DNA of 57,530 nucleotides, from positions 1-57,530 of the forward strand of contig JBFLWK010000003.1 of the NCBI GenBank assembly GCA_040757695.1, written 5' to 3'. This DNA comes from Elusimicrobiota bacterium. GTDB lineage: Bacteria; Elusimicrobiota; UBA8919. Positions 4,601 to 22,394 of the stretch are shown piece by piece; positions within the stretch are counted from its first letter, which is position 1, and each line of letters opens with the position of its first letter. Below the pieces are notes generated by a model. That model saw only the letters and a list, made by a program, of their open reading frames with translations. It was not told the origin of the DNA and searched no databases. Both the position numbers and the translations under genes were made by a program.

Positions 4601-7600
4601 CCTGTCCACTCTACTGCTGTAACTGCAGCATTATACAACGCTCTGAAATCGGTTGACCCTGAAATAGAGCCACTGGTATCAGAATAACAGACTGCATCTA
4701 ATAGAGTGCCTGCAGATGAAACAATCACTATTACATCATCAGAATCAGTGAGTCCTGACTTATCCGTATAGACCTCGTAATAACTTGTCCCTTTTAATAC
4801 CGGCACTGTCATATTTCGTGTGGATTGGTTGAATCTTAATACTAAATAATACTTTCCAGGTAGCGGCCAATCGCCTTCAAATGTCTCAAACGGCGTAGTA
4901 GATGAGTAGTAGGACTCATAAAACTGCAAGCCCTGTAAATTAACTCCACTACTGTTTGGATTATAAATCTCAAGCCAGTCATTGCCGTCGGAAGAATATT
5001 GGGACGGAGCAATTTCGTTGATACGAAGTGTAGAGCCTACACTGCCTGATTTGGCAGTTGCAGATGCTTGGGTTTTATTCACGGTTTTAGTATCTAACTC
5101 GGAGATATTGCCGGACGCATCTTTTGTCCGGATTGCAAAGTAGTAAGTAATACCGGGGTTCAAGTTTAATATTTTAGTTTCTGTAACACCGAGATTGCTT
5201 ACAGACCAGTCCTGATAGTAGGTGACCGCATTACTCCACCATGCATTTGTAGATACAGAACTGGTTACTGGATATGTAGCATATTTCACAATATATCGGG
5301 CACCGCCTGTATTATTTCCGGAAGCACCATCGTTACCCGGCGCAGTCCATTGTAACTGCACAGTACCAGCGATGGTAGTTCCGGTTTGTGCTACTAAGTC
5401 ATTTATTGCAGACGGCGGTATTGTATCCAACCCGTTAGTATTGACTGGTGATGGATACAAGTTTTCTACAAAATCATTATAATTGTTATTTGTATCTATA
5501 CCATCCGGCGAACGCGTTAATGAACTTCCAGAGGCACTTTCTGGTGCTGCAGAACCTCCTTCTGCCAGCGGGTCTGATTCATAACCTTCATAGCCGACAG
5601 TATCCATCACATCACCATTAGAATGTTTCAGCCGAATACCGCAAGTTGCAGAATTATACATTGTAGCAGATACAGAATAAGTAGAGTCAACAGTGACATA
5701 TTGAATTGTATCCTGCTGTCCTAACAAGAAATAGCCGTTTGGCGAGATTGTACCTGATGGGATACTAAGCAGTTCTTTCGGTGCTGACCAGTCCGTATTG
5801 TTTGTTTTTTCTATTCGCCAGCCTGCGAGATTTATAGTTGATGCAGACAGATTATAGAGTTCCAGCCATTCGTTGCCTTCATCAGTGCCTGACGGGTCGT
5901 ATACGAACTCGTTAATTACTACTTTATCCATTTTCGGCTGTGTAGCGGCGATATTAGAGAGCCCGGATGAGTTAGGGGGGGGAGCATCGTCTAACACTTT
6001 CATTGCAAAATAATAATTGATATCCACTGGCAGCCGAACCGTTAGTGTCTGAGTTAACCCAGCGGGCAGTGGCTCCGGGATATCAGTCAGTTTAGTTGCC
6101 GTGTTGAACTGTGTATCATTAACTATTTCCTGCACGGTAGAATATCTGATATCGTATTTGGATGCGATACCGGTATTCCAATCATCGCCTGTAGCAGTCC
6201 ATGTAAGTAACACCTCGCCATGCGAAGACCCTTCTGCTGCAACGAGGTCGTTGATTGTAGATGGTGGTGTTGTATCCGCGCCAATACCGGTTTGAACCGG
6301 CCCGTATTGAACCAACCCGGACTCGTTACCTGATTTGTCCATCACAAGCACTGCGATATAATAATTTGAGCCATCTACAAGTGCTGTACCTTGACAGGTG
6401 GTTAAGACGCAGCCGGTACCTGCTACATTAGTAATCACTTTTTCAGGAATCAGTGTCCCATCCCATTGCAAATCTGCGTCAGTAATTGCTGAGCCGGCTT
6501 TTACAAACACATAATATCTTGAAAAATCGGCTGCAGTAGAACTGCTCCATGAAACATTGATTGCACCACTATTAGAGCCTGCTGCGGATAGCACTGCGAT
6601 ATTTGATGGTGATGTAGTATCCGGTGCTGGATTTTCTGCTGTATTTTCATCAGTAGTAAGTTCATAAATCCGTTTCTGATATTTGATATACTGTCTTGCC
6701 AGTCGGCGGTCGTAAATAATGAACTGGTTTTCATCATTCTCGGTATCTGCACGTGGTGTCCAGTTGAAACTGCCGGAAACGATTATATCTTTATCAATCA
6801 CTATCAATTTAGAATGCATAATTGCACCGGTCGGATTATCATCTTTGCGGACATTCCAACCTGCCAAATCCCAATCACCGTAAGGGCAGCCACTCATACT
6901 GGCTTGACTGCGGTCAAACACACCTTGAACCACCAGCCCGCGGTTTTTAGCACCTGAAATTGCACCTTCTATAGTATCATCAGTAAATGTAAAAATATCA
7001 AAGAAGACAGATTCCTTTGCAGTACCAACTAATGAGGCGAGCCCGTTTGCAGTCTGTGCATCCGGCGAGAACCTGATATCTATCGGCACTGTGCGGTCTG
7101 GCAAATTCACAGTTGTAGATATTGACGAGACCCGTCCTGCATAATTGTAGTATTTTTTATATTCTTTGAAATAGCCCCACCACATCGCTTCAAACTCTTT
7201 TTGATACACTGCCGCAACATTTGTAGAATGGATAATCACGCAATCGTTATCCTGTGGCTGCAGTCCATCAACTGTATAGTTAACAGAGCCGGTTTCTACA
7301 GACCTGCCATCTACAACAATAAACTTATGGTGCATTATTGGGCTATCAATCTGGGCAGAACACCATTTAACATTCTGACTCAACTGGCTTGGCAGGGTCG
7401 GGTTAGACGATAATGTGTATGGGTCTACAATTAACCGGACAACCACACCGAGATTCGCTTTAGTATTTAACGCATTTATAATATCACTATTGATAAACGT
7501 ATAGATACTCACATAGATGTATTCCTGGGCACTATTGATAAGATTCAGGAGTTCGTTTTTCAGCTGACTTGTGCCTGCAATTGTTGCAGGTGTGAAATAT

Positions 7601-10600
7601 GATTTTATATCTTCTGACAATGGCACTGCTGCACCAGGCCAGTTATAGTCCGGCTCTTTGGGGCTTTGAGAACTATGCGGTCTGCGAACTGACTGGCTTG
7701 AGAAGTCAACTGAATTATTATCAGTATCTACAATCGCACCATTCGGGCTACCGGGTTTTCGGTAGAAACTGCCAAGTGCTGGAATATCCGTAACTGAAAA
7801 TGATGAAATCGGTGTGCCTTCATAAAGCTCAGTATCCGAAGAGGCAATCACACCAAAACTAACACGGTCTATCGTGATTTCTGCACTATCTGTTATCTGC
7901 CAGGTAGCGCCGGTATCATTCGCACCTGATGTAAACTCAGCATCAGGCACAATCTTCCACTTGAAATCACTATGTGCAAACAGATAGAACCCATTACTTT
8001 CAATAATTTTGCCAGATGGCACAGTCGCTCTTGTATAATAGCCAGTGCCACTGTTATATTGCAATTTCCAGCCGCTTATATTCATATCCTCATTTGTCGG
8101 ATTATAAAGTTCCACAAACTCATCACTACCGCTATCAGGTCCTTCAAATGCAAACTGGCTAATTACAATATGTTCAGCACCAGTGATAGTCCGGGTAGCA
8201 TCAGAAGTAACATAATCTGTTGCAAGCCCATCCTGATTATACGCCCAGATACGGAACCAGTATGAAGTAGATGGCAGCAGTCCTGTAACATCTGCGGTGT
8301 TAGCCACAAAATTATCGGTATAAGTTATAAATGTAGTAATGCTGACTACAAAATTGTCAGTAGAGCGAGATATACCATACCTTGTGCCTTCTGGATTGTT
8401 ATTGGGTAAAAAAGTAAATGTGATTTCGTTATGTGTGATATTGGTGAAACTGATTGTTGTCGGTGGGTTAGCAAGTGTAGATTTTGTCGCAGTATTAGAC
8501 GCAGAACTCTCACCAACTGCATTGTATGATTTTACATACGCTGAATATGTAGTATTGATTAACAGCCCTGAGGTCTGTGTCCAGGAAGTAATACCAGCAC
8601 CGACTGTGCCTGATAATCCGCCGGTAGAATTATAAATACGGAAACCGGTTTCACCAATAGAGACATCCTGCCACGACCACTGGATACTCGTGGTTGATAA
8701 TGCGACACCGGTAAAGTTCTGCGGTGGTGCCGGCGCAGTAAGCGTTGGTGGGCTTGTGGTAGGTCCTAATAGCGCACTGTTTAATACACTCGGGTCTGTA
8801 TCATAGACACTGATATAGAAATAGTAGGTTGCATTTTCAGATACTGATAACTGGTGCGAAGTACCCGGATATAGCACATTTGTGATTAAGTTCGGGTCAG
8901 CGACCGCACCACCTGTAGTTGTAGAATACAATGCATAATAACTGATATCGCCCGGGTCTGGTGATGGCGGTTCCCATCTTATATCTACTTTAGATATTGA
9001 CGACCGATATATTGTGAAATTGGTAGCGACATCAGGGTTCAAATCCTGCGCATAACCTGTTGCTGCGTTAGAGATTGCAGAGTAATTACTGACTTCATCT
9101 ATCGCCCAGATACGGAAATAATAGGTTGACGCGGGGACAAGTCCTGCGACTACATAATTTACATATGTATTTGGTACAATACCAGAAGTTGAGATATTTA
9201 CTTGTGCATTAGCAGTTGACCATACAACAGGTGTATAACTTGAGTACTGAATCGTATAAGAGCCGTTCAGCACACCATAATAACCATTATCATCATTAGT
9301 AGTTGTCCAGGCTAGTTTTACAGCGCCATCCGTTGTGCCAGGTTGTGCCGCAAGATTAGTAATTGCATCCGGTGAAATATCGTCATTTGCTCTGCCTTTG
9401 GTTGGGTTTAAGAATGTTTTCCAATCGTTTCTACTTGTGCCTGTGACATCGTCACTATCTACGGAATCAATATTTCTGCCAAAAGAAACGCCGTGCGCAC
9501 CACTAGACCAGTTAAACGCATCTGAAACCAAGCCGCCTGCAGGCGACCACTGATGATATTGTACTGCACCAAGATAACCTGCCTCAGTTGCCCAGATACG
9601 GCTCCAGTCAACCGCATCACCACCTGAATATGCAACAAAGTCAACTATCGTACCACCATTATCACGTAACGCAACTACACCTTCAAACCCACGTAAATCA
9701 ACTGATGCGTATACATCCCACCAGCCATTCTCACCTTTATCTGATGTCTCATCGGCAGCAGTAATATTCAAATTAAGCACTAAATACTCGCCAGCACCAA
9801 TGGTGATGTTGGGTATTGTTTCTTTGATTGTAGATTCTCTATAATCACCTGCTTTTATAGCAACAACTGACCAGTTATTTATATTGATTGATTGGTTTGT
9901 AGCGTTATAAAACTCTATCCAGTCCTGCCCGTTTGATTGAAGTGGTGCGACTTCATTTATCCGAATATTTGAGCCAACAATCGCAGATGCAGATGAAGAA
10001 ACCACATTTGAGATTAGAGAACTATTACCTTGCTCATCTTCTGTTTTTATAGCAATATAACAGACCGCACCGGGCAGCAAAGTACCAACCGTATAACTTT
10101 CATTAGTTCCAGGTGAACCAGGCGGCCAAACGATATCATTAGATATATTATCACGAGACGCACTTTCATAATTTGTTGCATTATCCCAGTCATAATCATT
10201 ATTGATTGGGTTTAAAGAATATCTAACCATATAGCCACTTGCTGTATTGGCAGTCCCATCCTCTGCTACCGCGGTCCATTGAAGTTTGATAGTACCGCGG
10301 TTTTCACCAACAGTGCAGACCAGGTTAGTAATCTGTGCAGGCACAACCGTATCAGGAACCCAGTTTTGAGTACCTCTTGTAGGGTCGCCCGGTGTAGGTG
10401 CGGCTGAAACATGCCATTCTGCACTTGAAGGGCTTGTCCCATCAGTTGATTTTTCATCTCTACTAAGTGAATAGTTACGGGCATAGTACCGATAGTTTAC
10501 AGCATCAATATCACCATCAACAACAGCATACCACTGGTTATTATTGGCTATCGCAAAATCATATGCGTCATCGAACTTATCTGAAATATCTTCATTACAA

Positions 10601-13600
10601 TTGCTATAAAATAGTGCATCAATCCAAGTTCCTGAATTGTTTTGTAGTATTATTCCACTACTGCCGGAGGTGCCTGTTCCGGGGCCTGTCAGCCCAGGGC
10701 AATCAGTTGCAATCTCATAACTATTCTCGTTGATTTGAACCGGGTTAGACATATTTCTTGTGCGGTTGAACCTCAACACCAAATATGAACCAACTGGAAA
10801 ATTCCAGTTCCCTTCAAATTTTTCAAACGGTGTACTCGTGCTGTCATAAATCTCGTATATTTTCCAACCATATATATCGGGCGTAGTAGGTCCGGGATTG
10901 TAAAACTCTATCCAATCATCACCGTCAGACGAATACTGTGAAGGTGCAACCTCATTGATAACTATCTGCCCACCAATAGTGCCTGTGGATGCTTTTGCAA
11001 ACGCCTGTGAGTAGGCAGTGGTGCCATTATCTAAATCAGAGACATTGCCCATATCATCAATAGTTCTGATACCAAAATAAAAGGTTACGCCGGGTGATAA
11101 CACAAGTATCTGCTGTTCAGAAACACCCTGATTAGCAACCGAAATTGTAGACGGATACAGTGTCGCTTGAGCCCACCAGACCTCAGAACTGCCTGTTACA
11201 ATATATGTGGAATACCGTAAATCATAATACGCAGGTGAGATATTATTGCCGGTTGTATCATCATCACCGGGCGCAGTCCATCTAACAATTATTTCACCAG
11301 GATTGATACCAGTTAATGCAGACAAATTGGTGATTGCTGATGGTGGTATGTTATCAATCCCACTATATGTTGAATTTCTTGGGCTTCTATCACCAGCAGA
11401 TTTAACTGTAAAGTCGTTAAAATTATTATCAGTATCCTGACTGTTTCCATTTATTGTATCATCCGGTTCTCTAACCAAACAATTTCCTGAACCCGGTGCC
11501 GATACTGCGGCGCCTTCAGGGTCAACAGCACTGCCATATCCTATTTTGTCAATTTCAATACTTAAATTGTCTGTTATTCTTACATGACCTGAACTATCAC
11601 TAAAACCTAACGAAGTAGCGGTTTTGATATCTACTGCAACACCTTCAATTGTATCTGCGGCTGCAATCAAATAATATCTTTTTGAATTTATAGATGTTCC
11701 AGCCGGGATGGTTATTTTATTAGACCAACTCCCACCACCGCCTGTTTGATACTGGACTACCCAGTTGCTTATATCAATACTACTATCAGTCGGGTTAAAC
11801 AGTTCTACGGATTCGCCGGGGGTAGAATTAACTGCCAGCCGACTTATCACTATATGGTCTGCGGGCGTAGTATCAGGCTGGGTCTCTGCAACTGCAAGGT
11901 TAGAGCGACTGGACCAGTTATTCACATCATCACGGACTTTTAGCACAAAATAATACTGTGTGCCGTTGTTTAATCCAGCAACTTCAAAAGTTTGTTTCTG
12001 CCCGCTAAATAATGGTGTCGGGGGAAACGCGACAGCAGTTGCATTGATAAAATCTGATTCAGTCATTATCGGATTAATAGAATACCTGATATTATATGCA
12101 GATGCTAACCCAAACGAGCCATCATCACCTGTACAGGTCCATTCTAATAGTATCGTGCCTAATGTACTGCCGGTATATGCGACAAGGTCTAATATCTGTG
12201 CTGGCGGTGTGATATCGGCTCCACCAGAAGTAACAGGACCGAATACCGAGCCGGATGCAAGTGTGGACTCGTTGCCCCATTTATCAGCCGCGGTAATTGC
12301 AATCCAGTATGAGTTCCCATCTATCAACTGCGCACCACCACAGGTTGTCAGTTGCGTACCTGTTAGTGTAATATTGTTGATTGCTGCTTCCGGTATTATT
12401 TTGCCATCAATCCCGCCACCCTGTCCTTCGTCTACATAGCCATTGCCATCATCATCAGTTGCGTTTGCAAAATAGGTTGTATTACCAAATGGCTCAGTGC
12501 TTGAAATAAACACATAGTATTTTGAGAAGCCACTATCACCTGTTCCACCGGAATATGTATTCCAATTAACAGAGATAGACCCCGGCCCGGACGGTGTCGC
12601 CGAGGAACCGGTAACAGAGAGTGGTGCAGTGACATCAGCAGGTGGATTATTTTCGCCAATACCTAATGTATAAACCCGTTTGAAATACTTTACATACTGG
12701 CGTGCAAGCCGTGCATCATCTATTATAACCATATTTTCATCATTTGAAGAAGATGCATTGTTTGATAAATTAGTAGAACCCGTTACCACTTTTTGCTGGT
12801 CTATAACCATTAGTTTGTTGTGGAGTTGAACTTCGCTACCAGGTCCTGATAGATATCTTATAGTTATCCCTGCGGTATTAAAATCATTATAGAGTGTATC
12901 GGATTGAGTATCATCTATTATTCCCTGTACTGCACGACCGTTGTTAAATGCGGTTTGAACATCATTATCCAAAAGCGTACCTACACTGAAACTGTATACC
13001 GCGAAGAAAATACTTTCTTGCGCATTCTGGACAAGTGAACGCAGTGTTGTATTTACCGGGTTGTTTTGTGGTGAATAATAATTTTGTATGGATGTCCCAG
13101 CGATAGTTAGATTTGTTGTTGGTGAGGTCTGCTTGTATGCGCCGAAATAGCCCCACCACATCTGCTTGAACTCAGCTTCATAATTTTTAGCTAATGTAGT
13201 TGACTGAACTACCATAAAATCATTATTCTGGCTGGTTAATGCACGGTAAGTTGGTGGCTGAACACTATCAAAATTGCCAGAACCAGTCCATACAATGCGG
13301 CCATCAACTACCACGAACTTTGAATGCATAAGATAACTGAACTCGTAAGGTCGCCATTTCACTTTGGAACCTGCAAAATTGGTTTGCGCAAATGATATAG
13401 CAGCATTACCGGCAACCACTCGGACAGTAATGCCGGCAGCTGCCCTGTTTTTCAGTGCGGTTGCTATCTCGGTATCATCCTGCTGATAAATCGCTACATA
13501 GATATAACTCTGTGCAGAATTGATTAAGTTTAAGAGCGATTGTTTTGCCTCACTATTGGTAGGTCCGATGGCTGTATATGTTGGAGTATTGAAATATGAT

Positions 13601-16600
13601 TTTACCCTTTCTGTAAGTGCTGCTAATGGAGAAGGCCAGTTTGTATCCGGCTCTACAGGGCTGTTTGTGTTTCGTGGAATACGGCGTGTCCGATTATAGA
13701 AATCAGTCGCATTATTATTTGTATCGTAATTGTTACCTGACGGGTTACCAGGCTTGCGTTCAAGCGAGCCAGAAGCGGTTGCTTGAACTGCGGTAGCACT
13801 AAGTTCAGGCGCTGAGGCAGTTCCCCAGCCAACCCTATCAATTTCATTCCCGGAAGAATCCAGAAGGCGCCAGTGCCCGCCAGTATCCGCAGTATCAAAA
13901 TAGTATGTACAGTTTTTAACTACACTGGCTGCAAAACCGGTTGATGCAAACAGATAATAACTGCCTGTAGAAAGCGTGATACCCGCAGGGACTGTTGAAA
14001 CATTCGTTGTCCAATCAATACCATCAGCAGAATACTGCACAACCCAACTGGAAATACTGACCGCGGCTGCAGATGAATTATAAATTTCTACAAACTCGTC
14101 AGTAGAACCATTAGCACCTTTGGTTGTAAACTGGCTAATCACGATATGTGGCGGTATTGTGTGAGGTACAGTGCTGATAGTTGTTGAATAGACACTTACA
14201 TGGCCGGTATAATCACCTGCAGTTATTTTGTAATAATATGTGGCGCCATTTTGAAGCCCTGTATGGATATACGGACTACTTATTGTAGACGCGGTAGGTG
14301 TTGTGCCGATAACAAACCAACTAACAGTATCCGGTGGCTGACTATCACAATAGATTGTGTAGGATGAAATATCCAGTTCGGTATTAGCAGTCCACCAGAG
14401 CTGGATTTCAGTATCACCCGCAAGTACTGATAAGCCCTGTGGCTGTGATGGTATCAAGTCCTGTGCAGATGCATATGCAGATGTATTTACCGTCGGAACA
14501 TCCGCAGACGAGTTCCATACAGACCAGTTGTTGTTGTCATCCTGTGCCTTGATTGCGAACCAGTAACTTGTGCCAGGTGTTAAATTGTAAAATGTTGTTG
14601 TGCAGGCAGTTAAAGGTGTTAATGAAGTTGTTGAAATATCTACAACTGTTGCAAATGTTGAGGATGTATTTGTAAAATTAGCCGATGTAACTATCCCAAC
14701 AGACGAATAATTTATGCGGAAAGTGCCGGTTAAATTGCCGACGGTTCCATCATCACCAGGTGCCGTCCAGTTCAAAATAATTGAACCCTCAAGCAATCCT
14801 GTTAATCCTGTCAAATTGGAAATCGCTGCAGGTTGCATACTGTCCAGATTAGGATAGTTTGCATAACCCGGTGTTGAAGATGGTGTGATTGCAAAATCGG
14901 TATACGAATCGGTATCAGTTGAATTTATATCACGCCCTGTAGTGGTTGTTGCGGTAATTGTTGAGATATTGATACAGGCAGCTTGCACGGTTGCATCATC
15001 ACCGGTTCCACCTGTCCCATCTGCAACAGCACCTGTCCAGGCAGTTGAACTTAACGCAGTATTGTAGTTGCCTTCAAAAGCTGTTGTCGTCTCTCCATCT
15101 CTATCAGAATAGCAGACACCATCTACCCAAGTATCATCGCCTGCAGGTATCTTTATTGATAGCACCTCATCAGTAGCGACCAGCCCTGTATCTGTTGTAT
15201 AAAAATCCCAATATCCGTTCCCATTTGTATCGCCAGTAGTATCATCTTCATCCGCAGTAGACGAACTGAACCAGATAACTATGTAATCGCCTGTTGCAGG
15301 ATTGAACGACCCTGGAAATGCTTTTCTTAATGTTGAGCCCTCAAAAAATCTGTAGCCAGAATAATTTCCACCTGCTGTGACACATATTTCTACCCAATCA
15401 TATCCGCCTGTTACCGCAGGTGCGATTTCGTTTATTAGTAAATTAGCCGCAGCAGGTGGTGGAGCGGTTGTAGAACTTGAATTTACATCACTGTAATAGT
15501 TTGTGGGGATACCGGCACCGTTATATGCCCAGACACGAAACCAGTATGTTGTGTTAGCAGATAGCAGATAGCAGATAGTAGTAGCTGCTGTAAGACCACT
15601 GGCATAATTTATAAATGTAATCTCATTCCCAAATCCTGGTTCTGTGGAACGGGAAAGCCCGTATCGTGTTCCATCAGGATTTGTATTCGCAGACCAATTA
15701 AGATTTATTGATGAGGAATCGTTTGTGGTTGCTACAAAATCAGTCGGTGCTACTGCGAGCGTATAAGTAGAAACTGTGGAAGTCCACGAGGCACCATAAG
15801 TGTTGGTCGCACCTGCACAGACAGTATATTGTGTATTAGTTGATAGATTGAGTTGCCACCAACTTGTTGTCCCACCTGATACCGGTACTGTAATTGAACC
15901 TAAACCTACCCAGTAATTAGACGGCCAAGTTCCTGTCGCTATAAAAAGTCCATCTTCGTTATTTGCATTGTCTTGAAACCGCCATACTACTGAACTTGTG
16001 AATACCTGATAGGCGGTTAAATTGCTGGGTGCGAATGGTGGACCTGCATATGGTATCGTGTTAATAATTGTAGAATATGCGCTTTCGTGGCCTGTTTTAT
16101 CAACCGCAGTCATTCTATAAACATGGCTGGTGCCGTTTTGTAAGCCAGTATCATAAAAAGTAGTAAATGTATAAGGTGTTGTGCCGGGACTTAACTCATC
16201 AGCAAAATCGTACGGGTCTGAAGTATCGCGGTATATTTTGTAGTAATTCAAATCCGTCTCGGAATTAGCAGTCCAGGAAAGTTGTATCTGCGTATCACCT
16301 GCAAGTGCTGTAAAATTTGAAGGTGCGGCAGGTGTTAAATCCTGTGCAGATGCGTAAGCAGAAGTGTTCACAGTTAAAACATCAAACGACGAGTTCCAGA
16401 CTGACCAAAGCTCTGCATCATCCTGTGTCTTGAGCGCGAACCAGTAAGATGTTCCTGGTGTTAAATTGCAAAATGTTGTTGTGCAGGCAGTTAAAGGTGC
16501 TAATGAAGTTGTTGAAATATCTACAACGGTTGCGAATGTTGAGGATGTATTCGTAAAATTGGCTGCTGTAACTATCCCAACAGACGAGTAATTTATGCGG

Positions 16601-19600
16601 AAAGTGCCGGTTAAATTGCCGACGGTTCCATCATCGCCAGGCGCAGTCCAGTTAAGCACGATAGAACTTTCTGTAATACCTGCCAGTGCGGTTAAGTTAG
16701 AAATTCCAGCCGGTTTACTTTGGTCGGTTACTGTATAGACACTATTTACTTTTCCTGGTGTGCCCCAACTGGGGTCAACAATTGAAGTTGACAATGTACA
16801 ACTACTCCAGTTAACATCATTATCACTACCAACTAGGTCAATTTTTTCTAATGTAATACCATTAGAAGCAGGACCCCAACTAGATAAAAATGTTACACTG
16901 CTAATAAGAGTTCCACCAACAGCAGTACTTAAATAAATGGTGTCACCGGTATCTGTGATAGACATACTATTAGTATCAAAATATGTAACACCACTTAAAT
17001 CATATCCGTATCCAGCACCACTGAATAATGCTGCACTTTCAGCCGCAACAATATAAGAATTAGCATATATTGTTGTACCATTAGGAATTGTTATATCATT
17101 ATTACCATCATTAATAATCCAGCCTGATAGGTGTATATCATTCCCTGTATTATTATACAATTCTATCCACTCACCATTTGTATCGCCGAGCGCGGTAGGA
17201 GCATCATGCATTATCTCATTTATTACAACATCGCCGAGTGAAGGTGTGTAAACTGGTACAGGTGCGGTTGCACTGCTGGTTGTAATATATGCGGTTTCTA
17301 TCTGGTCACCGTTGTATGCCCAGACACGGAACCAGTAGGTAGTATTCGCAGATAAATCATACACGGTTGTTGTGTTACCGATAAGTCCTGCTGCAAAGTT
17401 ATAGGCAGTTGTAGATACATAGAAATCTGTAGCAGTTGCATAACTTACACCGTATTTCGTTGCGGGGGCTGGATTATCGTTAACATCCCATGTAAGATTT
17501 ATTGATGAGGAATTATTGGTAGTCGCAGCAGGATTTGTTGGCGGTGCGGCTGCAGTAGAACTGGTAATTGATACAGACCAACTGCTACCTGCTATATTAA
17601 ATGCCTCTGCATATCTTGTACATGGTGTATTAGTTCCGAGATTTATTTCCCACCAACTTGTTGTTCCCGTCCCGCTTAAAGGTCCAAGATTTTCTGAAAG
17701 ACGGGTATAATCGCCGGATGAAACATATAATCCCGTTTCGTTTGTTGCGTTATCTGTGAATGTCCATTGGATTGATGAAACGTACACAGCGGTCGGACGT
17801 AAATTGCTCGGAGCGGTGGGTGGACCGACTTTTGTCATCGTGCTGTCTTGAATGTATGCGGTCTGTATCTGGTCTTCATTGAAAGCAACTATTCTGAACC
17901 AGTATGTTGAATCAGCGGTTAGATTAAATACCGTTGTATTATCTGCGGTAAGATTTTGGGCAAAGGTTACAGCAGTTGAAACACTTACACCATAACACTC
18001 AGGATTGCTTGAAATAATCACGCCATATCTTGTCCAGGCGGGATTGATTGTTGAATTATGAGACCAATTAACTGTAACGGATGAATAACCCACAAATGTG
18101 AATGTAGAAACAGCGGGTAATGGTGGTGCTGCAAGTGTATAGGTTGTTGCGGCATTTGACAACGGGCTTTCACCGGCAGTGTTTGTGGCGACAACTACTC
18201 TGTAATATGATGTATTCGCTATAAGATTGCTCTCAGTCCAGTTGACAACATCAGTATTAAGTGATGGTGATGCTGGATTGCCAGACGGCGAAGTTGTGTA
18301 TCTCACTCGGTAGCCACTTTCACCCGCTACATTGTTCCACGACCACTGAATTGAATAGGTTGATAAAGCGACACCTGTAAAGCCCGTCGGTGCATCCGGT
18401 GGGTTTTCAAAAGAGATAGTTGACGCTGCAATGTTAACACTTGCTACATCAGCAGACGAATTCCATACAGACCAGTTGCCAGCATTATCGCAAGTTTTTA
18501 TCGCAAACCAGTATGTTGTATAAGTATTCAAATTATAAAATGTAGTTGTCTGAAAAGTCAGTGCTGATGTTTGAGTTGAAATATCTACGACTGTCGCAAA
18601 AGTAGAAGAAGTATTTGTAAAATTAGCCGATGTAACTATGCCAACTGATGAATAGTTTATTCTGAACAAACTGCCAGACCGAAGATAATCGGAATTCTCA
18701 TTATCGCCAGGCGAAGTCCATTCAAGTTTTATAGAACCAAGCACGCTACCAGCGAGTGCAGTTAAGTTAGAAATCCCAGCAGGTGCTTTATTATCAAACC
18801 CGAGTTTTGCAGTACCACCGATACCCAGCGTTGTAGCAGTTGACGAAGTATAGCCACTGCCATCTTCAGACCAGACACGCCACCAGTATGTGCCATTGTC
18901 AGTAAGTTGTGGCCATTGATATCCGGTTGTTCCCTGTGGAATTAACGCAGATGTGTAATCAACAAATTTGTATATGAATGTAGAATCAGACGAGACCTGT
19001 AAATGAAATTTTAAGTCGTTTGCTGGAACAGGTCCTGATTGCGTAAACGAAGAAATTATTATTGACGAATTCGTCCATTGCATTGAATATAATGTAGTTG
19101 CAAGCCCTTGGCTTGCTAATTGTGTCAGTCCTGAAGGTAAATAGGGCTTGATAGCAGAAACATAACAGTATGCAGATGTATTCACAGTTAAATCATCAGC
19201 GGTTGATTTCCATACAGACCAGTTTGACGATTCATCAACAGTTTTGATAGCAAACCAGTATGTAGTATTCAGGTTCAAGTTAAAAAATGTTGTTGTCTGG
19301 TAAGAAAGCGCAGTAGTTGCAGTTGATATATCAACCACATTTGCGAATGTTGAAGTTGTATTTGTAAAATTAGCAGATGTAACTATCCCAACAGACGAAT
19401 AATTTAGCTTGAAACTGCTGCCCGAGATAAGGTCACCGGTATCGCCGTTATCTCCAGGTGATGTCCATTCCAATTTTACCTGTCCTTCGTTTGTTGTAGA
19501 CGCAATCGCGGTCAGATTTGAGATTGGTGATGGTGGTGTGGAGTCAACTAAAGACCTCAAAATACACATATCAAACGACTGGCGGTCTGAAAGCGAGTTT

Positions 19601-21057
19601 GTTTCTACTTTGGTTATATTACCCCAAGACGCACCATTCCATTTCTGCCAAGCAACCGCGTAGCCAACTGTATCGCTAGAAGTATTCACCATCAAATACA
19701 TCTCATCGCTTGAAGGTGCTTCCTCTCTCACAAGCTGATACCAGCGACCTTGCAGGTCAACCCCCCAATCGCTTGCTTGAGAAACCACTGACCAACTTGT
19801 AGAGCCGTTTGGTCTTGTTGTGTATGAAGGTGCTGTATTGTTTGAAGAAGAAAACGCAATCAGGCAATCACCACTGCCGCGTTCATAATTCACATCAAAT
19901 CGTTGCGATAAATTACCACTACCATAACCACCAGTTGTATTCCCAGAAATAAAACTACCAGTAGTTCCCCAAGCAGAACCATCCCAGGTGACACAAGCAA
20001 GCCGGACAGTATCTGCAGGGTCTTCTAAATAATTGAATACAAGTTGAATCTCGTCAGAACCCGGTTTTGCTATAAGTCGTACCCATTGTGTTCTTGTAGA
20101 GTATGTGATATTATATCCAACACTAATTGGCACTGCCGCCCAGCCAGAAGATGACCCTGTAGAATAACTTAACGAAGTAGTATTATTTGTATCAACAAAG
20201 ACAACCATTGCATCACCGGAATTTTGCTCTATTGCTAAATCAAACCGCCGAGGCATCCCGGTTGAATCATCAGAACCTAATGCAGACGCTATCGCATAAT
20301 CGCTATTTGCCCAAATACTATTACTTAAATCGTATACATCTACATATAAATACGAGTCATTTGTTAAAGCAACACAGATAACTTTATCATCACTTGGCAG
20401 TGGCTCAAGCCGTATCCATCTGTATGTCTCACTTGGGAAATCTGTTGACTGTTCATTACCCCACGAAGCATTATACCAGGTTCTATAGCGTGGGATACCG
20501 GTATTAGCAAATCTATAAACAATAATTCCGCTGGAAAGATTATTCTCAAAATATGTGAAATCAAATTGTTGTATATTAGGAGTGCCACCACTTATTCGCC
20601 AGTAATCAGTGGTACCTGTGGGTAGCCATGCAGAACCATTCCAGTATCTTGATTGATAGGATCTACCATCACTACTTAATGTTACTAAAACCGCCTCGTT
20701 GCTGACTGGATTTGCTTTAGCAACCCAGTATGATGTCTGGTCTTCAGAACCTGCTGGTGTTGGCATTGACAGTTTGGTTTCACCACCTACAAAGCCACCT
20801 GCGGATGAGGTAGAATACGATGGTGAAAACGGACCTGCAGAAGTTGAAGATGAGAAATATACCATCACACCTTCAGTTGCGTAAATAATGGGGACGGAGG
20901 AAAGTAGAAAAACAGTAACGAGGAACGTTGAACTGGTAACGAGCTGTAAAATTCTACCCGACTTCAGTCGGGGTTCCCAAGACTTAAACCACTTGTAGAC
21001 GGCATTTAAGTGCCGTCTACCGAATATTGTATCAATTATGGTTTTGAGTGGTTTCAT
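1651..21057 (-). CDS. Giant secreted multimodular protein: FN3, lamin-tail and phospholipase-D modules, FlgD/type IX-like C-terminal domain
   Basis: 6,468 residues in one uninterrupted frame. Residues about 37-61 form a hydrophobic export segment. Residues about 60-500 are propeller-like repeats (RFD...GDAMVVF type). The rest is strings of FN3 modules (motifs KLEWTSPGD, TTYWFAIKT) with ten lamin-tail modules (INEIxxxxxDWIEIYN) near residues 1272, 1876, 2306, 3069, 3364, 3694, 4290, 5041, 5341 and 5667. Two phospholipase-D pairs lie near 2480-2800 and 4480-4796. All four HKD motifs are intact (HSKFVVVD, HNKLMVID, HHKFIVVD, HSKLIVID, each followed by GSxN). The C-terminus has YDITGKKIR, WNG and ESGIYIYRV, then VVVAK, as in FlgD-like and type IX sorting domains. 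No Shine-Dalgarno is visible; ATG follows the stop of the upstream 40-codon ORF (TAAAATG), so translational coupling is likely. The target of the phospholipase-D modules is unknown. Confidence 0.9.
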   Translation of the reverse strand: MKPLKTIIDTIFGRRHLNAVYKWFKSWEPRLKSGRILQLVTSSTFLVTVFLLSSVPIIYATEGVMVYFSSSTSAGPFSPSYSTSSAGGFVGGETKLSMPTPAGSEDQTSYWVAKANPVSNEAVLVTLSSDGRSYQSRYWNGSAWLPTGTTDYWRISGGTPNIQQFDFTYFENNLSSGIIVYRFANTGIPRYRTWYNASWGNEQSTDFPSETYRWIRLEPLPSDDKVICVALTNDSYLYVDVYDLSNSIWANSDYAIASALGSDDSTGMPRRFDLAIEQNSGDAMVVFVDTNNTTSLSYSTGSSSGWAAVPISVGYNITYSTRTQWVRLIAKPGSDEIQLVFNYLEDPADTVRLACVTWDGSAWGTTGSFISGNTTGGYGSGNLSQRFDVNYERGSGDCLIAFSSSNNTAPSYTTRPNGSTSWSVVSQASDWGVDLQGRWYQLVREEAPSSDEMYLMVNTSSDTVGYAVAWQKWNGASWGNITKVETNSLSDRQSFDMCILRSLVDSTPPSPISNLTAIASTTNEGQVKLEWTSPGDNGDTGDLISGSSFKLNYSSVGIVTSANFTNTTSTFANVVDISTATTALSYQTTTFFNLNLNTTYWFAIKTVDESSNWSVWKSTADDLTVNTSAYCYVSAIKPYLPSGLTQLASQGLATTLYSMQWTNSSIIISSFTQSGPVPANDLKFHLQVSSDSTFIYKFVDYTSALIPQGTTGYQWPQLTDNGTYWWRVWSEDGSGYTSSTATTLGIGGTAKLGFDNKAPAGISNLTALAGSVLGSIKLEWTSPGDNENSDYLRSGSLFRINYSSVGIVTSANFTNTSSTFATVVDISTQTSALTFQTTTFYNLNTYTTYWFAIKTCDNAGNWSVWNSSADVASVNIAASTISFENPPDAPTGFTGVALSTYSIQWSWNNVAGESGYRVRYTTSPSGNPASPSLNTDVVNWTESNLIANTSYYRVVVATNTAGESPLSNAATTYTLAAPPLPAVSTFTFVGYSSVTVNWSHNSTINPAWTRYGVIISSNPECYGVSVSTAVTFAQNLTADNTTVFNLTADSTYWFRIVAFNEDQIQTAYIQDSTMTKVGPPTAPSNLRPTAVYVSSIQWTFTDNATNETGLYVSSGDYTRLSENLGPLSGTGTTSWWEINLGTNTPCTRYAEAFNIAGSSWSVSITSSTAAAPPTNPAATTNNSSSINLTWDVNDNPAPATKYGVSYATATDFYVSTTAYNFAAGLIGNTTTVYDLSANTTYWFRVWAYNGDQIETAYITTSSATAPVPVYTPSLGDVVINEIMHDAPTALGDTNGEWIELYNNTGNDIHLSGWIINDGNNDITIPNGTTIYANSYIVAAESAALFSGAGYGYDLSGVTYFDTNSMSITDTGDTIYLSTAVGGTLISSVTFLSSWGPASNGITLEKIDLVGSDNDVNWSSCTLSTSIVDPSWGTPGKVNSVYTVTDQSKPAGISNLTALAGITESSIVLNWTAPGDDGTVGNLTGTFRINYSSVGIVTAANFTNTSSTFATVVDISTTSLAPLTACTTTFCNLTPGTSYWFALKTQDDAELWSVWNSSFDVLTVNTSAYASAQDLTPAAPSNFTALAGDTQIQLSWTANSETDLNYYKIYRDTSDPYDFADELSPGTTPYTFTTFYDTGLQNGTSHVYRMTAVDKTGHESAYSTIINTIPYAGPPFAPSNLTAYQVFTSSVVWRFQDNANNEDGLFIATGTWPSNYWVGLGSITVPVSGGTTSWWQLNLSTNTQYTVCAGATNTYGASWTSTVSTYTLAVAPTDFVATTNDSSSINLNWSANTNPDGTRYGLSRSTEPGFGNEITFINYASGLTAATTICYLLSANTTYWFRVWAYNGAGIPTNYYSDVNSSSTTAPPPAAANLLINEIAPAVTGGYDWVEICVTAGGNYSGYRFFEGSTLRKAFPGSFNPATGDYIVIWFSSSTADEDDTTGDTNGNGYWDFYTTDTGLVATDEVLSIKIPAGDDTWVDGVCYSDRDGETTTAFEGNYNTALSSTAWTGAVADGTGGTGDDATVQAACINISTITATTTTGRDINSTDTDSYTDFAITPSSTPGYANYPNLDSMQPAAISNLTGLTGLLEGSIILNWTAPGDDGTVGNLTGTFRINYSSVGIVTSANFTNTSSTFATVVDISTTSLTPLTACTTTFYNLTPGTSYWFAIKAQDDNNNWSVWNSSADVPTVNTSAYASAQDLIPSQPQGLSVLAGDTEIQLWWTANTELDISSYTIYCDSQPPDTVSWFVIGTTPTASTISSPYIHTGLQNGATYYYKITAGDYTGHVSVYSTTISTVPHTIPPHIVISQFTTKGANGSTDEFVEIYNSSAAAVSISSWVVQYSADGIDWTTNVSTVPAGITLSTGSYYLFASTGFAASVVKNCTYYFDTADTGGHWRLLDSSGNEIDRVGWGTASAPELSATAVQATASGSLERKPGNPSGNNYDTNNNATDFYNRTRRIPRNTNSPVEPDTNWPSPLAALTERVKSYFNTPTYTAIGPTNSEAKQSLLNLINSAQSYIYVAIYQQDDTEIATALKNRAAAGITVRVVAGNAAISFAQTNFAGSKVKWRPYEFSYLMHSKFVVVDGRIVWTGSGNFDSVQPPTYRALTSQNNDFMVVQSTTLAKNYEAEFKQMWWGYFGAYKQTSPTTNLTIAGTSIQNYYSPQNNPVNTTLRSLVQNAQESIFFAVYSFSVGTLLDNDVQTAFNNGRAVQGIIDDTQSDTLYNDFNTAGITIRYLSGPGSEVQLHNKLMVIDQQKVVTGSTNLSNNASSSNDENMVIIDDARLARQYVKYFKRVYTLGIGENNPPADVTAPLSVTGSSATPSGPGSISVNWNTYSGGTGDSGFSKYYVFISSTEPFGNTTYFANATDDDGNGYVDEGQGGGIDGKIIPEAAINNITLTGTQLTTCGGAQLIDGNSYWIAITAADKWGNESTLASGSVFGPVTSGGADITPPAQILDLVAYTGSTLGTILLEWTCTGDDGSFGLASAYNIRYSINPIMTESDFINATAVAFPPTPLFSGQKQTFEVAGLNNGTQYYFVLKVRDDVNNWSSRSNLAVAETQPDTTPADHIVISRLAVNSTPGESVELFNPTDSSIDISNWVVQYQTGGGGSWSNKITIPAGTSINSKRYYLIAAADTIEGVAVDIKTATSLGFSDSSGHVRITDNLSIEIDKIGYGSAVDPEGAAVSAPGSGNCLVREPDDTINGNSQDTDNNFNDFTVKSAGDRSPRNSTYSGIDNIPPSAITNLSALTGINPGEIIVRWTAPGDDDTTGNNISPAYYDLRYSTYIVTGSSEVWWAQATLYPSTISVANQGVSEQQILVLSPGVTFYFGIRTIDDMGNVSDLDNGTTAYSQAFAKASTGTIGGQIVINEVAPSQYSSDGDDWIEFYNPGPTTPDIYGWKIYEIYDSTSTPFEKFEGNWNFPVGSYLVLRFNRTRNMSNPVQINENSYEIATDCPGLTGPGTGTSGSSGIILQNNSGTWIDALFYSNCNEDISDKFDDAYDFAIANNNQWYAVVDGDIDAVNYRYYARNYSLSRDEKSTDGTSPSSAEWHVSAAPTPGDPTRGTQNWVPDTVVPAQITNLVCTVGENRGTIKLQWTAVAEDGTANTASGYMVRYSLNPINNDYDWDNATNYESASRDNISNDIVWPPGSPGTNESYTVGTLLPGAVCYIAIKTEDEQGNSSLISNVVSSSASAIVGSNIRINEVAPLQSNGQDWIEFYNATNQSININNWSVVAIKAGDYRESTIKETIPNITIGAGEYLVLNLNITAADETSDKGENGWWDVYASVDLRGFEGVVALRDNGGTIVDFVAYSGGDAVDWSRIWATEAGYLGAVQYHQWSPAGGLVSDAFNWSSGAHGVSFGRNIDSVDSDDVTGTSRNDWKTFLNPTKGRANDDISPDAITNLAAQPGTTDGAVKLAWTTTNDDNGYYGVLNGSYTIQYSSYTPVVWSTANAQVNISTSGIVPNTYVNYVVAGLVPASTYYFRIWAIDEVSNYSAISNAATGYAQDLNPDVATNFTIYRSSISKVDIRWEPPSPDPGDISYYALYSTTTGGAVADPNLITNVLYPGTSHQLSVSENATYYFYISVYDTDPSVLNSALLGPTTSPPTLTAPAPPQNFTGVALSTTSIQWSWQDVSIGETGFRIYNSTGGLSGTVGAGITSWTQTSGLLINTTYSAYVKSYNAVGESSASNTATKSTLANPPTTISFTNITHNEITFTFLPNNNPEGTRYGISRSTDNFVVSITTFITYTDNFVANTADVTGLLPSTSYWFRIWAYNQDGLATDYVTSDATRTITGAEHIVISQFAFEGPDSGSDEFVELYNPTNEDMNISGWKLQYNSGTGYYTRATVPSGKIIESNGFYLFAHSDFKWKIVPDAEFTSGANDTGATWQITDSAEITIDRVSFGVIASSDTELYEGTPISSFSVTDIPALGSFYRKPGSPNGAIVDTDNNSVDFSSQSVRRPHSSQSPKEPDYNWPGAAVPLSEDIKSYFTPATIAGTSQLKNELLNLINSAQEYIYVSIYTFINSDIINALNTKANLGVVVRLIVDPYTLSSNPTLPSQLSQNVKWCSAQIDSPIMHHKFIVVDGRSVETGSVNYTVDGLQPQDNDCVIIHSTNVAAVYQKEFEAMWWGYFKEYKKYYNYAGRVSSISTTVNLPDRTVPIDIRFSPDAQTANGLASLVGTAKESVFFDIFTFTDDTIEGAISGAKNRGLVVQGVFDRSQASMSGCPYGDWDLAGWNVRKDDNPTGAIMHSKLIVIDKDIIVSGSFNWTPRADTENDENQFIIYDRRLARQYIKYQKRIYELTTDENTAENPAPDTTSPSNIAVLSAAGSNSGAINVSWSSSTAADFSRYYVFVKAGSAITDADLQWDGTLIPEKVITNVAGTGCVLTTCQGTALVDGSNYYIAVLVMDKSGNESGLVQYGPVQTGIGADTTPPSTINDLVAAEGSSHGEVLLTWTATGDDWNTGIASKYDIRYSTVQEIVNDTQFNTATKLTDIPEPLPAGLTQTLTVRLPVDINYYFAMKVLDDAPPPNSSGLSNIAATQPKMDKVVINEFVYDPSGTDEGNEWLELYNLSASTINLAGWRIEKTNNTDWSAPKELLSIPSGTISPNGYFLLGQQDTIQYVTVDSTYSVSATMYNSATCGIRLKHSNGDVMDTVGYEGYESDPLAEGGSAAPESASGSSLTRSPDGIDTNNNYNDFVENLYPSPVNTNGLDTIPPSAINDLVAQTGTTIAGTVQLQWTAPGNDGASGNNTGGARYIVKYATYPVTSSVSTNAWWSNAVTYYQDWSVSNLGVTETKILNLNPGITYYFAIRTKDASGNISELDTKTVNKTQASATAKSGSVGSTLRINEIAPSQYSSDGNDWLEIYNPNSSGVNLQGLQFYESYYSSTTPFETFEGDWPLPGKYYLVLRFNQSTRNMTVPVLKGTSYYEVYTDKSGLTDSDDVIVIVSSAGTLLDAVCYSDTSGSISGSTDFRALYNAAVTAVEWTGPLATGSNDTDVMNNCANVKYITRNRSLSRDDNSTDGTNPAQSEWHISASPTPGSPTPGQKNRVPDTVPPAQVTTLSVSQGINRGSVKLTWTSVGDDNRSNTASGYVLKYSPTNITDISFDNVTDWNNTWTPSAPNKTEIKYVGKLTPGATYYFALKTEDEQPNLAIMSNVGFGAASSRVGSYIRINELAPLVGNGNDWVEIYNAYTSSVTLMNWKLYGLESGSDSPAVLKTFPNVWLPVGSYLVVNFSSSAAAVDETTIDSNNNGYLDVYGSYDLRGYEGILYLEDADGNMVDFVAYSQGQKADWDSLWADAVAFHQWYPATKTAAAAADWSAATATKSLGRDASPTDIDDTGYSRNDWYVYSYPTKGYKNDSAPPARTTDFVASGSNIEGYINLRWTAPGDDGMTGSLVNKGKYLVKYATYPVVSDNTWWDSIPSVDWDSSTNPQKGTRWLQVTKSPGSIETQAITGLYPDRTYYVALKTQDSTGNLSMVSSTSSAVAFNTNPSSPTWTSSPFTRTATSITTRWNPNPELDILNYEVQYAAHSGYTASPAWNPIGSTTTATSFTSNISAQPYWWYYYRLKARDKTTPTALESSWSSTLALSPDMTPPTITARTTPTTIRLLGDVLVIQLSVADNTGSQYDTGISTVNVRYRLADETTWRWATLVSGSYSVGAKTVSTLSFQTARITTTTAIEYYIEVKDVAGNGVIAGSGGDTTFLQYNTPTTISSTTAYNVDVNTEYETTPTATGGITVPDGNGLDGAVSVQFTDGNKTEIKIKQYNPNEIIVPWAKKEIEIAASWRAAGGKPVCVFEFTPSVVFKKPAMLSLLYFDVDNNGIVEKIDGTSTGLQESNLRLYYYDGLEWRYVGGKVNTTNNTITAAINHFTYYALFPVGILPEKPEAKEKFLTPDNIGPVGTETLNFQAQTEIKKIELYDITGKKIRTLNDVASWNGRDDDGNPVESGIYIYRVETVTGKVNTGAVVVAK
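14577..14760. repeat. Near-identical direct repeat within the giant gene (second copy 16458-16641)
   Basis: About 184 bp recur at an offset of 1,881 bp with only a handful of mismatches. Both copies encode the same part of an FN3 module (FRINYSSVGIVT ... TFATVVDISTTSL). This looks like a recent or recently homogenised duplication. Confidence 0.85.
15555..15581. repeat. Tandem heptamer (AGATAGC) inside the giant gene
   Basis: Three to four AGATAGC-type units are carried in frame, encoding ICYLLSAN where sister FN3 modules read VYDLSAN. This is the same class of short tandem repeat as seen in other genes of the window. Confidence 0.75.
20951..21023. repeat. Paired-hairpin repeat element inside the giant gene
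   Basis: Two palindromes, 20957-20972 (CCCGACTTCAGTCGGG) and 20995-21020 (arms GTAGACGGCA / TGCCGTCTAC), are flanked by TTCTAC on the left and GTCTAC on the right. They encode the odd segments GRRHLNAVYK and EPRLKSGRIL before the export segment of the giant protein. Similar paired hairpins occur at 30508-30577 and 50623-50683. Confidence 0.75.
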
Positions 21058-21058
21058 T

Positions 21059-21181
21059 TTATCTATTTACGACAGCATCCACCTCGGCAGACCTGACCGT
21101 CTTCTTCCCAAATTTACCTGCCTTTTTTAGAAGCAAGTCCTCATAGTTCTCAAAAAACAGCTTGACGCGTATCTCACCCAT
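21059..21181 (-). CDS. 40-residue ORF, N-terminal remnant of a clan AA aspartic protease
   Basis: ATG at 21181 is preceded by GGAAG at 5 nt. The peptide opens MGEIRVKLFFENYED and runs through KTVRSAEVDAVV, like the N-terminus of small clan AA (retropepsin-like) aspartic proteases. Those continue at this point into the catalytic LVDTGA; here the frame reads VVNR and stops. The catalytic Asp-Thr-Gly is therefore missing. The stop is one base from the ATG of the giant gene, so the ORF may now act as a coupling leader. It lies directly downstream of a riboswitch-like structure and a strong promoter. The protease resemblance is from memory of the family and should be tested by profile search. Confidence 0.5.
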   Translation of the reverse strand: MGEIRVKLFFENYEDLLLKKAGKFGKKTVRSAEVDAVVNR

Positions 21182-21187
21182 AATCGC

Positions 21188-21214
21188 TTCCGTTTTTTCC
21201 TAAAAAATACGGAA
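21188..21214 (-). promoter_or_regulatory. Expression-platform hairpin covering the ribosome binding site
   Basis: On the minus strand, UUCCGU (21214-21209) can pair with ACGGAA (21193-21188) and the adjoining U/A runs extend the stem. The stem contains most of the GGAAG ribosome binding site (21191-21187). The overlapping stretch 21216-21208 (CUUUCCGUA) can instead pair over nine positions with UACGGAAGG (21244-21236), the 3' side of the aptamer closing stem. The two pairings exclude each other, as expected of a riboswitch. Confidence 0.6.
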
Positions 21215-21239
21215 AGAATTTTTTTGTATTAAATCCCTT

Positions 21240-21305
21240 CCGTAGCAAGACCGATTATTCGGTCGGCCTGTAGAAACATCCGAGCCTATTCCCGGATTTA
21301 TACGG
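21240..21305 (-). promoter_or_regulatory. Purine-riboswitch-like aptamer (guanine-type signature)
   Basis: Read on the minus strand: closing stem CCGUA/UACGG, junction UAAAU, hairpin 2 with loop GAAUAGG, junction GUUUCUAC (identical to the conserved purine-riboswitch J2/3), hairpin 3 with a loop opening CCGAA, then GCUACGG. The GG at the end of loop 2 and CC at the start of loop 3 fit the kissing-loop contact. The base corresponding to position 74 is C, the guanine/2'-deoxyguanosine type. Deviations are G instead of A before that C, one extra A in J1/2 and altered loop sequences. At 66 nt the length fits. Ligand identity is inferred. Confidence 0.6.
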
Positions 21306-21319
21306 CTTGTCTATAAAAT

Positions 21320-21347
21320 AGTATAACATAAAATTAAATTTTGTCAA
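21320..21347 (-). promoter_or_regulatory. Sigma-70-type promoter for the giant-protein locus
   Basis: TTGACA (21347-21342), 16 bp spacer, TATACT (21325-21320). The predicted start near 21313 is about 8 nt before the aptamer. Confidence 0.75.
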
Positions 21348-21401
21348 GTACTTTTTTTAAGAATGCAGATGATCGCTGATAGAATCACAGATAACATGCC
21401 A

Positions 21402-21474
21402 TGTCATTCCCAAATGGTTCTATTGGGAATCCATTAAAAGCGTAGATTCCCGACAGGGGCATTCGGGAATGACA
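21402..21474. mobile_element. 73-bp MITE-like element, copy 1
   Basis: Ends are TGTCATTCCC and GGGAATGACA, a perfect 10-bp terminal inverted repeat. The same 73-bp element is present in inverse orientation at 29376-29448 with few differences. It lies between the giant-locus promoter and the metallo-beta-lactamase gene. The flanks carry CGCTGAT/ATCTGCG-type dispersed repeats. No ORF inside. Confidence 0.8.
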
Positions 21475-21500
21475 AATCCGCAGATAAATATCAGCGGCAA

Positions 21501-22394
21501 TCAGCGATTACTAAATCCTACTGCGTTTAGTGAGTAAGTTTCACCATCGGTTGTTACAATAATCGTGCCTTCTTTATCGGTTCTGTGAAGTTCAATGTCA
21601 AAATCATTATATCGCTTTACAATCGTTGGATGTGGCAGTCGGAATCTGTTATATCTACCGACGGACATTACAGCGACTTCAGGCGATACCGCAGACAGAA
21701 AATCTTCGGTTGAAGATGACCGTGAACCGTGATGCGCTACTTTCAGTATCACTGCTGACAGTTCGCTTTTTTTGTAGTTAGATAGCACACTCTCTTCCGC
21801 AGATGTTTCCATATCGCCTGTGAATAAAAACGAAACATTCTTATATGTAATTTTTAGCACAATTGAATTATTGTTCGGGTCGTCAAATAATTGATTTGTA
21901 TTTGGCGATAAAACCTCTACTGATAGGTCAGCATCCCAGTGAAGTATCTCACCACGAGTTACAATTTTATATTTTATTTTTTTCAATTTTATTACCTGAA
22001 GAAACCTTGTATAAACAGGCGATGGATACGGGAAGCCGGTATCAAGCACTTCACCAACAGGATATTTTTTCATAATACTGATTAAACCGCCAATATGGTC
22101 AGCGTGTGCATGAGAGGCAACAATACAGTCAATTTTTGTAATACCTTGCTTGACTAAAAACGGTATAACGATTTCTTTGCCGGCATCAAATTCGTCATCT
22201 TCAAGTGCACACTGCCCTGCATCAATCAGTATATTTTTGCCATTAGGCGTTTTCAGGAATGCACCATCACCCTGCCCGACATCCAGAAAATAGACCTCCA
22301 GGTTTTTGGGTTTGGTTTCTTGCTGAGAATATAAATTAACGACAAGCAGTCCTGTAAAAAGTATTACAAGAAATTTTAATTTAGCATCTCTCAT
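21501..22394 (-). CDS. Secreted ComEC-type metallo-beta-lactamase fold hydrolase
   Basis: 297 residues with an N-terminal hydrophobic signal segment (about 7-21) and then a complete metallo-beta-lactamase fold of the kind found at the C-terminus of ComEC: FLDVGQGDG, the metal motif HAHADH at residues 95-100, FTGD near 191-194 and HHGS at 221-224. All metal ligands expected for this family are present. Such stand-alone proteins are thought to act outside the cytoplasm on nucleic acid or other phosphodiesters; the substrate here is unknown. The start overlaps the stop of the DUF3006 gene (ATGA), a pairing common in this family. It is last in the minus-strand array. Confidence 0.88.
   Translation of the reverse strand: MRDAKLKFLVILFTGLLVVNLYSQQETKPKNLEVYFLDVGQGDGAFLKTPNGKNILIDAGQCALEDDEFDAGKEIVIPFLVKQGITKIDCIVASHAHADHIGGLISIMKKYPVGEVLDTGFPYPSPVYTRFLQVIKLKKIKYKIVTRGEILHWDADLSVEVLSPNTNQLFDDPNNNSIVLKITYKNVSFLFTGDMETSAEESVLSNYKKSELSAVILKVAHHGSRSSSTEDFLSAVSPEVAVMSVGRYNRFRLPHPTIVKRYNDFDIELHRTDKEGTIIVTTDGETYSLNAVGFSNR

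Follow-up and report, generated by a model that had tools for sequence, protein, structure and literature searches.

As a rule, guanine riboswitches regulate the synthesis and transport of purines, and in adenine riboswitches of the pbuE type the 3′ strand of P1 competes with a terminator, the ligand turning transcription on. Most guanine-I riboswitches repress (PMC9295807). Guanine-II riboswitches, reported from Firmicutes only, combine a single-nucleotide insertion in J2-3 with an insertion in J3-1, keep U51 and are predicted to be ON switches; the xanthine-II class is defined by U51G together with insertions in J2-3 and J3-1 (PMC9295807). The 2′-dG-II class is defined by C51 and by a G-C pair closing P1, C51 being the nucleoside determinant, and U51C alone shifts a guanine riboswitch aptamer to dG (PMC8872408). 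Riboswitches of this class have been reported before PLD, ComEC and endonuclease I genes (PMC8872408). NucT of Helicobacter pylori, a nuclease with a PLD domain, has been linked to natural transformation as well as to the salvage of purines (PMC5714352).

The leader described here is, as judged from its sequence, an unusual variant of this known RNA family with an unusual regulon. It lies on the minus strand of the window, a 57,530-nt stretch of an Elusimicrobiota genome, among the following features:

1651..21057, minus strand: giant secreted-type protein of 6468 aa with fn3, LTD and PLDc_2 domains (Pfam domains, motif search, structure and NCBIfam matches)
21059..21181, minus strand: 40-codon stub homologous to a clan-AA-type aspartic protease over its N-terminal 39 residues (the genome has a full-length copy, 62% identical, in C34, L106)
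21188..21214, minus strand: possible RBS-masking helix UUCCGU/ACGGAA, predicted only when P1 is formed (constrained folds)
21202..21207, minus strand: U6 tract of the terminator (sequence)
21208..21244, minus strand: terminator hairpin with a 14-bp stem, UACGGAAGGGAUUU/AAAUUCUUUCCGUA, −15.1 kcal/mol (folding; equivalents in L005, L007 and L008)
21240..21305, minus strand: purine riboswitch aptamer, 66 nt (RF00167 score, structural parse, covariation)
21320..21347, minus strand: sigma-70-type promoter, TTGACA-16-TATACT, with extended −10 (sequence parse, promoter check)
21501..22394, minus strand: stand-alone ComEC C-terminal-type metallo-beta-lactamase (TIGR00361, 190.4 bits; Pfam Lactamase_B)

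Read along the minus strand, the promoter is followed by the aptamer (21305-21240), the hairpin (21244-21208), the U6 tract (21207-21202), the ATG of the 40-codon ORF at 21181 and that of the giant ORF at 21057. We consider it probable that this is a purine riboswitch, most likely for guanine, that acts as a transcriptional ON switch for the stub and the giant fn3-LTD-PLD protein.

The leader is a genuine member of the purine riboswitch family. A cmscan of the whole window matched RF00167 (Purine) at 21325-21223, minus strand, with 53.5 bits and an E-value of 2.4e-6, against a membership cut-off of 37 bits (the Rfam gathering cut-off). When genomes of the same family were searched, the same variant leader was found in three, all of one sister genus, with RF00167 scores of 51.3-56.8 bits and 78-81% identity to the window leader over 117-118 nt. 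Promoter, aptamer and terminator are common to all four copies (the window, L005, L007 and L008), and the alignment of the four contains compensatory changes at 4 base pairs, in P2 and P3. Across these copies 98.8% of aptamer cells are paired, the loop-loop GG/CC contact included, compared with 24-45% in slid controls. Covariation support from four related sequences (n=4) is modest but clear, and score, E-value and homologous leaders with compensatory changes in three other genomes together exclude a chance match. The purine-riboswitch-like leader of the original prediction is thus borne out by two of the checks proposed for it, a covariance-model search with the purine family and a search of related genomes. 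No relatives of the leader were found on plasmids in a plasmid search.

The promoter had likewise been recognised correctly: TTGACA at 21347-21342 and TATACT at 21325-21320, separated by 16 nt, match the consensus at 11 of 12 positions and carry the extended TG, and a genome comparison indicates that near-identical promoters also drive other genes in the same genome. A repeated element with inverted-repeat-like text occupies 21320-21500 of the window, directly upstream of the leader promoter; it matches the genome partially at about 40 places, in some cases through the promoter alone.

The structural parse resolves the aptamer into P1 (CCGUA/UACGG), P2 (AUCCGGG/CUCGGAU) and P3 (AGGCCGA/UCGGUCU), joined by J1/2 (UAA), J2/3 (GUUUCUAC, 8 nt) and J3/1 (UGC), with loops L2 (AAUAGG) and L3 (CCGAAUAA) connected by GG/CC kissing pairs. 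The pocket residues U22, U47, U51 and C74 are all present and correspond to guanine-type contacts. The aptamer therefore shares with the xpt-type guanine-I class (RF00167) the three-way junction, J1/2, J2/3, U51, C74 and the kissing loops. It differs in closing P2 with A25-U45 in place of U25-A45, and in a three-nucleotide J3/1 with G73, UGC in all four copies, where two nucleotides with A73 are usual; the junction end of P1 is closed by A-U, not G-C. Further departures from guanine-I are the predicted ON sign, as against the usual OFF, downstream genes other than those of purine metabolism, and the Elusimicrobiota host. The 66-nt aptamer, its exact J2/3 motif and the C at the specificity position had all been identified from the window sequence. 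The replacement of A by G before that C was also real, although the earlier description was incomplete in overlooking the third J3/1 nucleotide. An extra A assigned to J1/2 was a misreading, J1/2 being the usual UAA and this A the first residue of P2, paired as A25-U45.

Other described classes fit less well. With guanine-II (PMC9295807) the window copy has in common the retained U51, a one-nucleotide J3-1 insertion, a predicted ON sign and a guanine-I aptamer in the same genome, but J2-3 is 8 nt long and lacks the insertion, and the regulon is not a phosphoribosyltransferase. Xanthine-II can be rejected on U51 and on the same 8-nt J2/3. The pbuE type resembles it in setting the P1 3′ strand against a terminator and differs at the specificity position, where C74 rather than U74 marks the window aptamer as guanine-type rather than adenine-type.

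The genome contains one other purine aptamer, which is canonical and scores 84.6 bits (genome scan). At L001 (1501-1602, C12 of the same genome), L003 and L004 a canonical guanine-type aptamer directly follows nrdR, with a thioredoxin-like gene and nrdG downstream; for a guanine riboswitch, accessory genes of ribonucleotide reductase are an unusual regulon. The sequence suggests a separate terminator here, with the P1 3′ strand forming an antiterminator (OFF), and position 73 varies among this family's canonical nrd-linked copies (A, A, C). At L039, from another Elusimicrobiota family (genome G274), a purine aptamer of 54.8 bits has GUGUCUAC as J2/3 and a G before the specificity C; it is followed by a long hairpin sharing the P1 strand, and no clear downstream gene was read.

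The arrangement of the expression platform points to control of transcription. The 5′ arm of the hairpin contains the P1 3′ strand (shared UACGG, 21244-21240), and because the terminator stem starts with that strand, P1 and the terminator are mutually exclusive; a ligand-stabilised P1 would therefore be expected to allow readthrough. Equivalent hairpins occur in L005 (−18.0 kcal/mol, then U8) and L007 (−17.7 kcal/mol, then U7), both sharing UACGG with P1. In L008 a repeat (about 1595-1705) is inserted into the hairpin loop, with both arms and the U8 tract intact. A hairpin with a U tract immediately behind it, the hallmark of an intrinsic terminator, is thus kept in four of four leaders; the window hairpin, with its loop of 9, was missed by a simple terminator scan that allows loops of up to 8.

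The original prediction had instead proposed a mutually exclusive pairing that exposes or hides the ribosome binding site. The exclusive pairing stands, conserved as P1 versus terminator, whereas the RBS helix is predicted in constrained folds of the window copy and not in those of the sister leaders. An OFF switch at the level of translation could nevertheless be built on that helix: ligand would form P1, the freed UUCCGU would pair with ACGGAA beside the stub start codon, translation of stub and giant would be blocked, and the hairpin would serve as an anti-sequestering element. When P1 is forced, the minimum-energy fold indeed contains UUCCGU/ACGGAA (−37.7 kcal/mol, compared with −43.4 with the terminator), and repression would agree with most guanine-I riboswitches (PMC9295807). 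We regard this scheme as unlikely, given the hairpin and U tract in all four leaders, the missing helix in two sister leaders whose first genes begin about 170 and 340 nt past the aptamer (the two leaders with a readable first gene), and the weak RBS-like element of the window leader, GGAAG. Conservation favours termination over RBS masking as the main mechanism, and a transcriptional ON switch is the best-supported logic for these sequences. In this mechanism the 14-bp hairpin would capture the P1 3′ strand when no ligand is present, and transcription would stop at U6; with ligand bound, P1 would be stabilised, the terminator stem would lose its base, and RNA polymerase would read through into the leader ORF, a truncated protease, and into the gene for the giant secreted fn3-LTD-PLD protein, a gene that would be co-transcribed with the leader.

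The ligand is most likely guanine, judging from the pocket. An altered ligand such as 2′-deoxyguanosine had been suggested on the basis of J1/2 and the G change, and this argument finds no support: J1/2 has no insertion, U51 is kept, RF03165 (2′-dG-II) gives the window copy 44.5 bits against a cut-off of 60, and G73 also occurs before ordinary purine genes. A search of GTDB species genomes with the pattern A25-U45 plus GCUA returned 18 aptamers outside Elusimicrobiota that combine A25-U45 with G73; for at least 14 of them the gene behind the aptamer was read as xpt, purine permease, purE or purC. An NCBIfam scan of four downstream representatives gave matches for xpt, purE and purC; the permease, without a match, was named by reading its sequence. 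Because G73 aptamers elsewhere precede xpt, purE and purC, we reject G73 by itself as the mark of a new ligand, and it seems compatible with ordinary guanine sensing. Nothing relevant on A73G or on Elusimicrobia guanine riboswitches was found in the open-access literature.

Membership in 2′-dG-II is rejected as well, on the RF03165 score, the retained U51 and the A-U pair in place of the G-C closure of P1. What the window copy shares with that class is the expanded J3/1, the P1/terminator overlap (as in the Elusimicrobiota 2′-dG-II members seen here) and the PLD and ComEC genes reported for its regulon. The three-nucleotide J3/1, an expansion common to all four copies, could together with G73 alter specificity, and a ligand shifted away from guanine, to 2′-deoxyguanosine or another guanine nucleoside for instance, would fit a DNA-degrading regulon of the kind that 2′-dG-II riboswitches precede (PMC8872408). 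The sister copies also share a 6-nt L3, and the gap between RF00167 and RF03165 scores is only about 7-9 bits, compared with about 36 in the genome's canonical copy. Set against U51 in four of four copies, the A-U closure, the sub-threshold RF03165 score and the purine genes behind G73 aptamers elsewhere, these likenesses leave a shifted ligand improbable in our estimation. The observation behind the original prediction is confirmed, and its interpretation is partly supported.

RF03165 aptamers of the 2′-dG-II class are themselves common at L006, L009 and L040-L063, mostly in another Elusimicrobiota family, with 75-85 bits in the copies scanned. Many precede a secreted-type peptide of 62-80 aa and then a radical SAM protein; others precede a secreted VGQGDA metallo-beta-lactamase or a papain-like peptidase. 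A different arrangement is seen at L020, L022, L023, L036, L024, L029 and L031, where a guanine aptamer is directly followed by an apparent PRPP (ykkC-type) aptamer before purE, purC or permease genes. The guanine-PRPP tandem riboswitch is a known arrangement.

Of the two genes downstream of the leader, the first is a protease-like stub, as originally described: its likeness to the full-length protease covers the first 39 residues, and because it stops just before the catalytic DTG motif, a leader ORF is the most that it can be. The protease family name comes from reading that motif in the full-length copy, and the stub has no match in Pfam or NCBIfam. The giant surface protein of the original prediction stands as a secreted-type 6468-aa ORF and can now be described further by its LTD and fn3 domains and by four HxKxxxxD motifs (residues 2578, 2746, 4576 and 4748), which form two pairs and conform to the PLD superfamily. 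Its nearest solved structures are MitoPLD, endonuclease Nuc and NucT. NCBIfam NucT models match the giant at 66-81 bits, below the equivalog cut-off of 297; it shares the PLD nuclease domain type with H. pylori NucT (PMC5714352), which differs in being small and single-domain. Its C-terminal sorting-type matches are weak. With these DNA-cutting-type domains the giant is probably a nucleic-acid-degrading secreted enzyme.

The ComEC-type gene at 21501..22394 sits upstream of the leader promoter, outside the controlled transcript. The same window also holds a full-length ComEC/Rec2 at 35498-37699. The gene content at the leader resembles the reported 2′-dG-II regulon (PMC8872408); the earlier statement that it is not a known purine regulon holds for the guanine class but not for 2′-dG-II, downstream of which PLD and ComEC genes have been reported (PMC8872408).

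In the three sister-genus genomes the leader follows feoB (named by reading its sequence) and heads a one-strand run of about 19 kb that contains a HAMP protein, several pilin-like genes, a PLD-LTD-fn3 giant, PilM, PilN, PilO and a secretin-type gene; the run was read in two genomes, and in the third the contig ends. The sister giants, of 2379 or 2704 aa, share domains with that of the window at 26-30% identity and are not its orthologues. The orthologous pilin run of the genome that contains the window has a similar promoter and lacks an aptamer, so the coupling of riboswitch and pilin run is not universal, and the feature common to both riboswitch loci is a PLD-LTD giant downstream. That shared target, together with the intact pocket residues, kissing loop, promoter and terminator, makes it very unlikely that the leader is a relic that was carried along in front of a recombined junction of protease and giant and has lost any relevant regulatory function, as might be supposed from the truncated protease, the repeated element just upstream and the aptamer-free pilin run.

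Taken together, the gene contexts suggest purine-gated scavenging of extracellular nucleic acids, in which secreted nuclease-like enzymes would serve purine salvage from extracellular DNA. More tentatively, and with considerably less confidence, the A25-U45 pair and UGC J3/1 might define a distinct Elusimicrobiota purine-riboswitch subclass that senses a DNA-derived purine, the ligand possibly not being free guanine, and activates a secreted nuclease/DNA-uptake-type programme of pili and giant PLD-LTD proteins.

Finally, we note that a guanine-type pocket stands here ahead of giant secreted proteins with NucT/Nuc-like domains, and in the sister genus ahead of a pilus-type gene run, and that the variant illustrates how G73 alone does not signal a new ligand. 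If confirmed, the leader could be set beside the 2′-dG-II riboswitches, which are frequent in a different Elusimicrobiota family, as a natural comparison of the ways in which purine aptamers change their specificity. It would also show that, in an uncultured phylum, the scavenging of nucleic acids is controlled by a base-sensing riboswitch; these Elusimicrobiota bacteria may use a purine signal to control the scavenging of environmental DNA.
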